Shown here one piece after another: positions 36,407 to 39,753 of a stretch of DNA of 64,000 nucleotides. This stretch comes from Pyrococcus horikoshii OT3. Lineage in GTDB: Archaea > Methanobacteriota_B > Thermococci > Thermococcales > Thermococcaceae. The DNA lies in the NCBI RefSeq assembly GCF_000011105.1, contig NC_000961.1:248001-312000 (forward strand), given 5' to 3'. The position numbers were made by a program, and so were the translations under genes. Every line of letters begins with the position of its first letter. Positions within the stretch are counted from its first letter, which is position 1. A model generated the notes under the pieces. It was not told where the DNA came from and did not search any database. It worked only from the letters and a program-made list of their open reading frames with translations.

Positions 36407-36720
36407 TATCTCACCTAGAATTGATAAATTTATGTGTACTTAAAAACGTTGGTTTTACGGTGTGGAATTCTCCATAACTAATAGCCACAATCATAGAAGG
36501 CTGGACTATATTCTACACTACATAATATAAAAATGATTGTTTGTGTTCTTTTGTTCACTCTTTTACTTTGGCTTTTTTCGTTTGAATCGCCTCGGATTTT
36601 AATAATTATAAATAAAAAATCCTACGAAAAGAAAAAGATTTATTAACTCAATTTATAAGTAGTAATATTTATATATTCCCATATTTTATTTTAAGTGACT
36701 AATTGGCCAGATGATGCATT
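36407..36720. other. AT-rich spacer at the island border
   Basis: 314 bp with no gene. The left end is the purM promoter (minus strand). The right end holds a plus-strand TATA box TTTATATATT (36668-36677) for the Cys-rich precursor at 36721. No tRNA, repeat arms or attachment site was recognised, although the sequence is richer in A+T than its neighbours. Confidence 0.5.
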
Positions 36721-37686
36721 ATGGAATGGAGGAAGGCTATCTTTACCCTCTTTCTCGTGGTAATGATGTTAAGTCCCCAGTTGAGTGCTGTCCCTCAAGC
36801 CATGGCCATGAGCACGAGCAATTCAAGCATAACCTTCAAGAGGGTTGTTGTTGCCTGGTATGAGGATAAAGGCAAACTCTATATGAACGTCACTTGGGTA
36901 AATAAGGTAGTCAACTTGACAAACCTAACTAGAGGCTGTCCTATTCACAATTCCAACGTTACTCCGAAGATTAACGTTTCCGTAGTTACTCTCTACAACA
37001 TGACAGAAAGGCACGAGTAGCTGCTTTTCTTCAGGCTGAACTTCTACAATGAAACTTTCAATTACACCATGTATGCACTCGTTTACCATGCTGAAAGAAG
37101 TCAGTACAACTTCACTCTGGTTACGAGGATATTCACTGACCCAAAGACGGGCGAGTATAAAGCTTACCTGACTGGAATGAACATTGCTCCAAACAAGGAG
37201 AAGAGGGTCGTTCCAGTTGGGGATGTAATACTTACTGCTAACAACCTGACTCTATCGGAGTACTATTGGACTCTTAACAGAGTTCTAATGAACCTCAGGA
37301 AGCATGATGAGAGTGCCTGGATTTGGGGCAGGAGCGCCTTCGAGCTAAGACACCTATCACACTTAGTAAAGTTAAAACTACCAGAATACAACCAACAGAA
37401 AGCAATAGGACTAAGCATTCCAGTTGATGTTATTGGAATAACTTTAACTTGTATTACTTATCCTAAACATATAGACTGGTGGTGTGCAATAACATCGTGC
37501 GCAACATCAGTAATATTGGGAGTACTTGAATGTGGGGAATGTGCAGCAAGCCTGTTAATTAAGAAACCAAATATCAAAGCATGTACTGCATGCGTAGCCG
37601 CAGTTGGTAGTATAAGCGGGGCCTGTGAGAAGTGCTTTAGTGACTGGACAACTGAGTGCATGCCTGGATATGGGCCCGTGGTGTAG
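36721..37686 (+). pseudogene. Halocin-C8-like secreted Cys-rich precursor interrupted by an in-frame TAG
   Basis: Two reading segments lie in the same frame, 36721-37020 and 37021-37686, parted only by TAG at 37018-37020 (GAG TAG CTG). Read through, the product has about 321 residues: a signal peptide (MEWRKAIFTLFLVVMMLSP to AMA), a glycosylation-rich middle (NSS, NVT, NLT, NET, NFT), and a C-terminal region of about 80 residues (from ITLTCITYP) with ten Cys and hydrophobic/Gly-rich spacers (CAITSC, CGEC, CTAC, CEKC). A ten-Cys C-terminal peptide of 76 residues behind a long secreted N-terminal domain is the layout of the halocin C8 precursor, whose N-terminal part gives immunity. So this may be a peptide antibiotic (archaeocin) gene, now broken or expressed by readthrough. 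The family link is by pattern only. Confidence 0.6.
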
Positions 37687-37699
37687 AGGGTGATGTTAC

Positions 37700-37984
37700 A
37701 TGGAAGCAGAAGTCGTTGGTTATGCTGTTTCAGCTTTAGTGCTTCCTTTTCTTATTTATTACATGGCATTGTCTTTGAAATCTCGGCAGATCAAGAGCTA
37801 TCAAACCTGGGCTGTTATAGCAGCACTCTTCTTATCAATCAGAGGGACGTATAACTTGTTAATTTATCTAAAAGTTGTTAATCCTTGTCTTCTCCTCGAT
37901 AAGCTTTTTTCTGCGTTTGTTTTGGGATCTACAGTGTTAACGCTAATTAATTATTTTAAGGGGAAAAGGGTAAACAAAAAATAA
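37700..37984 (+). CDS. Small membrane protein behind the Cys-rich precursor
   Basis: 94 residues, three predicted transmembrane helices (VVGYAVSALVLPFLIYYMAL; TWAVIAALFLSI; LLDKLFSAFVLGSTVLTLI) and a basic C-terminus KGKRVNKK. GGGTGATGTTAC gives a good ribosome site. It starts 14 nt after the end of the Cys-rich precursor and is most likely in the same transcript. By position it could be an immunity, export or processing partner of that peptide, but the sequence shows no known domain. Confidence 0.65.
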   Translation: MEAEVVGYAVSALVLPFLIYYMALSLKSRQIKSYQTWAVIAALFLSIRGTYNLLIYLKVVNPCLLLDKLFSAFVLGSTVLTLINYFKGKRVNKK

Positions 37985-38107: not shown

Positions 38108-38548
38108 ATGGATCCCTCAGTGGTCTTTGCCTCCCTGCTGGGTTTATCTCTAGTTTTGCTCACTAAGGGAATTATACAATTATCACTCGGAACCGAGAAT
38201 TCGCAGAACCGAGGGAGTGGTTGTTTTAAACCCTGACAACGTGAGTGCTGGCGAGATCTCCTTCAGGCCTTCAGAAAAACTTAAGCAGATTACTAATACC
38301 TTGGAACAGGAGCTAATGGTAAAACTCAAAAAGATAGGCAAAGAAAAGCAGTTTCACTGATTAAATTGGCCACTATTGGCGTTATTGCATCAATTTCGGG
38401 GCTACTAATAGTCGGATAACGTGAATATTATGCGCTATCCCTCAGTTCAAGAGCTATTAACTTAGCCGGAGGAAGAATAAATGAAGCCAAAGTACTTTAT
38501 CCCCTTGTTCCGCTTGAAGATTTTTCTGGCTTTAACCTCCCCAATTAA
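38108..38548 (+). pseudogene. Decayed gene for a small membrane protein
   Basis: Starts ATG DPSVVFASLLGLSLVLLTKG with a hydrophobic helix, in frame to 38236. The meaning then moves to another frame at about 38205-38211 (REGVVVLNPDNVSAGEISFR, then EKLKQITNTLEQELMVKLKK, then KLATIGVIASISG) and again near 38399 (GLLIVG, stop, REYYALSLSSRAINLAGGR to FNLPN and TAA at 38546). Two frame changes and one stop are needed, so the gene is dead or the sequence is faulty. The ancestral product would have had about 145 residues with two membrane segments. No family recognised. Confidence 0.45.
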
Positions 38549-39063: not shown

Positions 39064-39111
39064 TCTGTGTATTCACATAATGTATCGCACATAATTTATG
39101 TGGTGATTGGA

Positions 39112-39333
39112 ATGCCAAATATGACTATTTCGGTTCCTGATGATCTGTATGAGATAATGAAAAAGCACAGGGAGATTAAGTGGAGCGAGATTGCAAGACG
39201 AGCAATGTGGGAGTATGCGAGGAAGCTTGAGCTCTTGGACAAGCTCTTGGAGAATTCGGAACTTACAGATGATGACGTTAGTGAACTGGCTGAAAAAATA
39301 AAGAGAGAGATCGCGAAGAGGCATGAAGTATGA
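39112..39333 (+). CDS. vapB: VapB-like antitoxin
   Basis: 73 residues from ATG 39112 (GGTGATTGG upstream; an upstream start at 39067 is not supported). MTISVPDDLYEIMKKHREIKW begins as a ribbon-helix-helix, with the short strand and two helices typical of RHH antitoxins, and an acidic/basic helical C-terminus (ELTDDDVSELAEKIKREIAKR) that would wrap the toxin. Its end overlaps the PIN-domain gene by 4 nt (ATGA), the standard vapBC layout. The antitoxin frame is intact although the toxin frame is broken. It may still act on other VapC toxins or simply be in decay. Confidence 0.78.
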   Translation: MPNMTISVPDDLYEIMKKHREIKWSEIARRAMWEYARKLELLDKLLENSELTDDDVSELAEKIKREIAKRHEV

Positions 39334-39753
39334 AAGTTGTCGTTGATGCTAACGTGATTATTTCTGCATTCAAAAGGGATTCTGTAACCCGGAAGATTCT
39401 CCTTTTTCCGTTCATAAATTTCTACTCACCAGCGTATCTTCTAGATGAACTTGAAGAGCACAAGGGAGAAATCATGAAAAAGCTAAGGTCAATGAAGAAG
39501 AATTTAAGGTCATTTTAAACCTCCTGCTTGGGAATGTGAAGGTTCTTCCAAAAGAAGCTTATATATTGATAAGATGGAAGAAGCCTTGAAAATTGTGGGG
39601 GAGATTGATAGAGATGATGCTCCTTACTTTGCACTTGCCTTGAAAATTAACGCCGGAATCTGGAGCTATGATAAAAAGCTTTACAATCAGAAAAAGGTTA
39701 AAATCTTCACGACGGGAGAGCTTTTTGAAATCATAAGAAAAGGGAAGTTTTAA
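39330..39753 (+). pseudogene. vapC: vapC PIN-domain ribonuclease, broken by two frameshifts
   Basis: Begins MKVVVDANVIISAFKRDS with the first PIN Asp and continues to LLDELEEHKGEI with the next acid, but the frame stops at 39518. The next frame goes on as EEFKVILNLLLGNVKVLPKEAY, and after another shift near 39560 as YIDKMEEALKIVGEIDRDDAPYFALAL with the third acidic group, then WSYDKKLYN to the stop at 39751-39753. Restored, the protein would have about 140 residues and all PIN catalytic acids. Two small indels, one early, silence the toxin. Overlaps vapB by 4 nt. Confidence 0.75.

Follow-up and report, generated by a model that had tools for sequence, protein, structure and literature searches.

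An interrupted secreted-precursor gene of Pyrococcus horikoshii belongs to a Thermococcaceae family with exchangeable Cys-rich C-termini and predicted immunity partners

INTRODUCTION

A stretch of 64,000 nucleotides of the Pyrococcus horikoshii OT3 chromosome (positions 248001 to 312000 of the 1,738,505-bp single-contig genome), here called the window, contains a gene for a Cys-rich protein whose reading frame is split by one TAG codon. What does this gene encode, and is it still functional? A preliminary description, based on the letters of the window, had compared it to the secreted precursor of halocin C8, a peptide of haloarchaea. Here, we have analyzed the locus against other Thermococcaceae genomes. 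The gene is likely to be an inactivated member of a polymorphic archaeocin/immunity family that extends across the Thermococcaceae, with the immunity retained; the killing, the immunity itself, the processing site, and the glycosylation are the predicted parts of this proposal. Coordinates given without a genome handle are positions in the window.

RESULTS

The precursor gene and its internal stop codon

The frame (36721 to 37686, plus strand) consists of 99 codons, the in-frame TAG, 221 further codons, and a terminal TAG at 37684 to 37686 (Table 1), that is, two open segments separated by a single stop, as first described. The product starts with MEWRKAIFTLFLVVMMLSPQLSAVPQAMA, judged by eye to be a Sec-type signal peptide that is probably cleaved after AMA, and its last 85 codons contain ten Cys, among them those of the motifs CAITSC, CGEC, CTAC, and CEKC, which bears out the reading as a secreted precursor that ends in a module with ten Cys. 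The 14-bp dyad TGACCANNTGGTCA, degenerate at this locus, is also found at L005, L007, L010, L014, L027, and others, and the exact sequence TGACCAACTGGTCA has seven occurrences in the 94 genomes, all of them just upstream of a precursor start. The dyad is a possible operator or leader element, with shared ancestry as the alternative.

TABLE 1 Features of the precursor locus (positions in the window)
Feature	Position	Strand	Basis
Candidate archaeal TATA box, TTTATATA	36668..36675	+	Ca. 50 nt upstream of the start in most of the homologues inspected; by eye
TGACTAATTGGCCA, degenerate (10 of 12) copy of the leader dyad TGACCANNTGGTCA	36696..36709	+	10 to 11 nt upstream of the start in many copies
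Signal peptide, Sec type, without twin arginine	36721..36807	+	Sequence inspection; conserved stretch LSLQLIAAPQAMA in homologues
Conserved N-domain (carrier), beta-rich, about 11 N-glycosylation sequons, ending at the junction Asp	36808..37428	+	Profile A1, AlphaFold model
In-frame TAG	37018..37020	+	Reading frame; Gln at this column in homologues
C-terminal ten-Cys module, 85 residues, predicted effector peptide	37429..37683	+	Five genomes; Cys invariant
Candidate ribosome-binding sequence of the partner gene, abutting the precursor stop	37687..37694	+	Sequence inspection
94-aa membrane protein, predicted cognate immunity protein	37700..37984	+	Family A3; type-specific association
Homologue of the membrane gene of the L007 halocin-C8-type cassette, decayed by two frameshifts	38108..38413	+	tblastn E 1.8e-12, two pieces; three-frame reading

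The comparison with intact homologues that had been proposed for this gene gave an alignment that continues across the TAG column, at which all homologous copies compared encode Gln. Two genomes keep intact genes with the window's own type of C-terminus (ORFs of 328 aa in G011, L002/L049, and of 333 aa in G005, L004/L050), and the lesion is confined to the P. horikoshii genome of the window. Values of dN/dS against the clade mates were low on either side of the TAG (0.05 to 0.14 where computable), and that of the window C-terminus against L002 was 0.036, indicating that the stop is either recent or a sequencing error. In the N-domain tree, the terminal branch of the window copy measures 0.22, longer than most of its clade, a length that is not decisive.

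If the TAG were an error in an old genome sequence, or were read through, the gene would be functional. We regard this as unlikely, although the TAG is the sole lesion, with all 221 codons beyond it open and with low dN/dS before and after it, and both the TATA box and the partner gene are intact. A recent, real nonsense mutation would look identical, however, and inactivation is common among the copies of the family (see below). Read-through was rejected as well, since TAG serves as an ordinary stop in the window, where it ends 7 of the 38 long ORFs and also the precursor itself; Thermococcales are not known to have pyrrolysine systems. Thus, the reading that we favor is a real inactivation, with a sequencing error as the lesser possibility.

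A common N-domain with exchangeable Cys-rich C-termini

Profile A1 detected homologues of the N-domain in 29 of the 94 Thermococcaceae genomes; a search with the part of the protein after the TAG retrieved the same 29, with one to five matches per genome. The intact homologues are single ORFs of ca. 300 to 380 residues with a signal peptide, and all share a secreted N-domain of ca. 240 residues. The precursor belongs to a previously unannotated family with a shared carrier. The N-domain profile had no match outside Thermococcaceae in a sample of 115 genomes of the phylum, and Rfam gave none for the locus. An origin from viruses or plasmids was rejected, since neither the plasmids nor the viral contigs searched contained a copy and PHROGs gave no match.

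Homology between copies ends sharply at a junction, LPEYNQxKAxGxxxxxD, whose Asp (residue 236) is invariant in the eleven rows of alignment A1. The two sides of this junction differ in composition. There are ca. 12 N-x-S/T sequons per N-domain against 2.9 expected from shuffles and only 2 among 3,994 residues of C-termini, while 43 of the 44 C-termini contain an even number of Cys. This pattern points to two functionally different modules, an N-domain that is probably extracellular and glycosylated and a C-terminal module that would be a disulfide-bonded peptide. Of five AlphaFold models of the N-domain of the intact relative L002 (39 relatives), the best reached a pLDDT of 84 (48 to 66 in the other four) and shows a beta-rich domain that includes two long helices. 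Fold searches with two models (the first a poor one; the best one against the PDB and viral models) returned no significant match, and neither did a sequence search of the PDB, so that the fold is without assignment rather than proven new.

The Cys-rich C-termini, ca. 59 to 120 residues long, form ten clusters at an E value of 1e-4 and fourteen at 1e-10. The window type is present in five genomes, and its ten Cys are invariant across the four distinct C-termini aligned. The Cys conservation, whose absence the preliminary description had named as a refutation, held within the type, but other intact homologues have unrelated C-termini and the profile search did not lead to halocin C8. Neither Pfam nor NCBIfam has a domain that matches the window C-terminus, which belongs to a type without a characterized relative; the only types with a match are those of halocin C8. 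Indeed, TIGR04449 (halocin_C8_dom) was recognized on the same N-domain in three of the ten C-termini tested (33, 44, and 24 bits, with a cut-off of 24).

In scans of whole genomes, six exceeded the TIGR04449 cut-off, with some of the matches in a different precursor family. This second Thermococcus family with halocin C8 domains (L099, L100, and L101; 264 to 267 aa) has an unrelated N-domain, which gave a probability of 1.7% in a profile comparison with that of the family described here.

A type-specific membrane gene downstream

The membrane protein ORF, which is conserved, begins 13 nt past the precursor stop. It belongs to family A3, whose members have one to three hydrophobic segments by our count, and an open A3 gene lies beside the window-type C-terminus in all five genomes. 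A further A3 copy, in G009, was considered as an orphan partner and rejected, because it borders the end of a contig and occupies the site used in G005. Throughout the family, a codirected ORF with a hydrophobic segment starts within 130 nt downstream in 42 of 45 cassettes. Cassettes of the same type shared the partner family in 87 of 109 pairs and those of different types in none of 752; when the labels were shuffled, none of 10,000 trials reached 87 (mean 11), although this test overstates independence because same-type copies share ancestry. With the finer types, the figures were 84 of 87 and 3 of 774. The downstream gene, which the preliminary description had tentatively attached to the precursor, does belong with it.

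That description had also noted that, in halocin C8, the N-terminal part of the precursor gives immunity. This is unlikely here, given that one N-domain is common to 10 to 14 peptide types, whereas the membrane gene differs from type to type.

Partner genes are also found apart from their own peptide. The halocin-type partner family is represented behind unrelated types in G019, G054, G070, and G025, and its decayed relative in the window follows the A3 gene (Table 1). An open solo homologue of the halocin-C8-type membrane gene, with no precursor beside it, is located at G000:C1:966418-966711 (L109). Further downstream in the window (39067 to 39753), a predicted antitoxin-like ORF precedes a PIN-domain gene that is split by a frameshift (PF10130 matches in two pieces).

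Chromosomal sites and movement of the cassettes

In the window, the precursor is inserted between purM, which is upstream on the opposite strand, and purT (site genes were named by inspecting translations). The same type occupies the cbf5-rsmC site in G011, hydA-hypD in G005, and radA-nucS in G038 and G069, and it is spread over four separate, well-supported clades of the N-domain tree. The cbf5-rsmC site, in turn, harbors at least eight C-terminal types. With one type at four sites and in four clades, the C-terminus and the membrane gene travel together, and sequence comparison indicates that the two are exchanged as one cassette among carriers and sites. Tandem arrays of cassettes of different types, some of them truncated, were observed in G070 (C1:1345000-1350500 and 1421500-1427500) and in G047 (C5), which suggests local cassette exchange.

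Broken precursors beside open partners

Three of the five window-type precursors were broken independently, by the TAG in the window, a 4-bp duplication in G038, and a 2-bp deletion in G069 (the last two being otherwise nearly identical in sequence), and the partner gene is open in all three. Across the family, ca. 14 of ca. 45 copies are disrupted away from contig ends by our own count. The partner was open in every disrupted copy that could be checked except that of G071, where it is frameshifted; G049 presents the reverse situation, an intact precursor with a frameshifted partner. In L030 (G059) and L042 (G072), whose sequence backgrounds differ clearly, an in-frame TAG occupies an identical position close to where the signal peptide ends. 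Taken with the many frameshifted copies, TAG codons in these two signal-peptide regions indicate that inactivation is common in the family.

DISCUSSION

A proposed weapon and antidote, and the alternatives

The findings fit a short sequence of events, in which the steps of cleavage, killing, and immunity are proposals modeled on halocin C8 (PMC11509114) and on polymorphic toxin systems. The intact precursor would be exported by Sec, with the glycosylated N-domain acting as a common carrier or shield that keeps the peptide inert. Proteolysis at the conserved junction (Asp 236) would free the disulfide-rich peptide, which would inhibit related archaea, probably at the membrane, while the co-transcribed, matched membrane protein would protect the producer. 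In P. horikoshii, the TAG would stop production and the membrane gene is open, making the strain a likely immune nonproducer. The reading as a weapon is supported by the halocin C8 domains, an established family of antimicrobial peptides, which other members carry in this position behind the shared N-domain. Against it stands that neither a processing protease nor a dedicated exporter was recognized.

The extreme diversity of types and the cognate partner genes would also fit allorecognition, with the C-terminal modules as surface or signaling ligands (kin recognition, pheromone, or adhesion) and the membrane partner as their receptor, all the more as killing is an activity that we infer. Three observations make this improbable: the presence of halocin C8 domains on this carrier, the loss of precursors whose partners are kept, and the stacking of partner genes behind unrelated types in the manner of immunity banks. 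Less probable still is a role of the membrane protein in type-specific export or maturation instead of immunity. Type specificity and tight coupling would be expected of such a factor too, but it would hardly be kept beside broken precursors or in solo and stacked copies without a cognate precursor; the accumulation of partner genes without their own peptide is what would be expected of immunity genes and is hard to explain for export factors.

Finally, membership of the window peptide in the halocin C8 family, which its ten Cys, its length, its precursor layout, and the TIGR04449 domains of its family mates would favor, is very improbable and was rejected on the profile tests, since the C-terminal 85 residues had no TIGR04449 match and profile comparisons with halocin C8 gave probabilities of 1.1% and 0.3%, whereas the halocin-C8-type alignment of the family, as a positive control, reached 95.9% with a haloarchaeal halocin-C8-domain protein. 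The Cys spacing is different as well, and the N-domain is unrelated to that of an alignment of haloarchaeal halocin-C8-domain precursors (hhalign 1.1% with L122/L123, an alignment that leaves out the classical ProC8). The twin-arginine (Tat) motif is absent by eye from MEWRKAIFTLFLVV. The analogy first drawn with halocin C8 was thus right in the layout (a secreted precursor with ten Cys, and relatives with TIGR04449) and in the likely function, and it failed in family membership.

Going beyond the window, we lean slightly toward a modular archaeocin platform of the Thermococcales, in which a single glycosylated carrier, whose fold has no known match, would present ten or more unrelated disulfide-rich peptides, including halocin C8, swapped between fixed sites as cassettes with their own membrane immunity gene, the weapon being often lost and the immunity kept. 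Almost nothing has been described of chemical conflict between hyperthermophilic archaea, and the matched pairs of peptide and partner are found in culturable, partly tractable organisms, so that killing and immunity are directly testable. The family also offers disulfide peptides that are presumably very heat-stable, as well as a natural experiment on the change of producers into likely immune nonproducers.

Comparison with known systems

Makarova et al. reportedly expanded the halocin C8 family in 2019, and their archaeal toxin survey of that year may already list part of the family described here. In the literature searched, no paper connects genes of this kind in Pyrococcus or Thermococcus with halocin C8 or other archaeocins, and none describes a small carrier with at least ten unrelated disulfide peptides and cognate membrane genes in hyperthermophiles. 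Both parent ideas, the halocin C8-type precursor and the polymorphic toxins, were already known, and their combination is new in that literature.

The haloarchaeal protease-activated precursors HalH4 and HFX_0892 (PMC12893001) are likewise secreted and yield a fragment that is active after proteolysis, but they are single precursors and not a carrier with exchangeable peptides. The VARTIG modules of Thermococcales (PMC8416519) share a hypervariable locus and type-linked membrane proteins, although a large Ig-domain protein is at their center, while the family precursor has ca. 330 aa and nothing Ig-like was found in it. Polymorphic toxin systems of bacteria and archaea (see PMC8416519) resemble the family in the constant N-terminus, the exchangeable C-terminal effector, the type-specific cognate gene downstream (predicted to give immunity here), the orphan or stacked copies of such genes, and the cassette swapping; unlike them, the family has a small precursor, no recognizable toxin domain, Cys-rich peptides without an enzymatic domain, and no large delivery scaffold.

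As for halocin C8 itself, PMC11509114 (citing Sun et al. 2005) describes ProC8 as a Tat-exported protein of 283 aa from which the immunity peptide HalI and a peptide of 76 aa are matured. The secreted precursor and the disulfide-rich C-terminal peptide are common to both, and some family members carry TIGR04449. However, the window peptide is not of that type and its signal is of the Sec type, and the family N-domain is unrelated and common to many types, with a separate, type-specific membrane gene in place of the N-terminal immunity.
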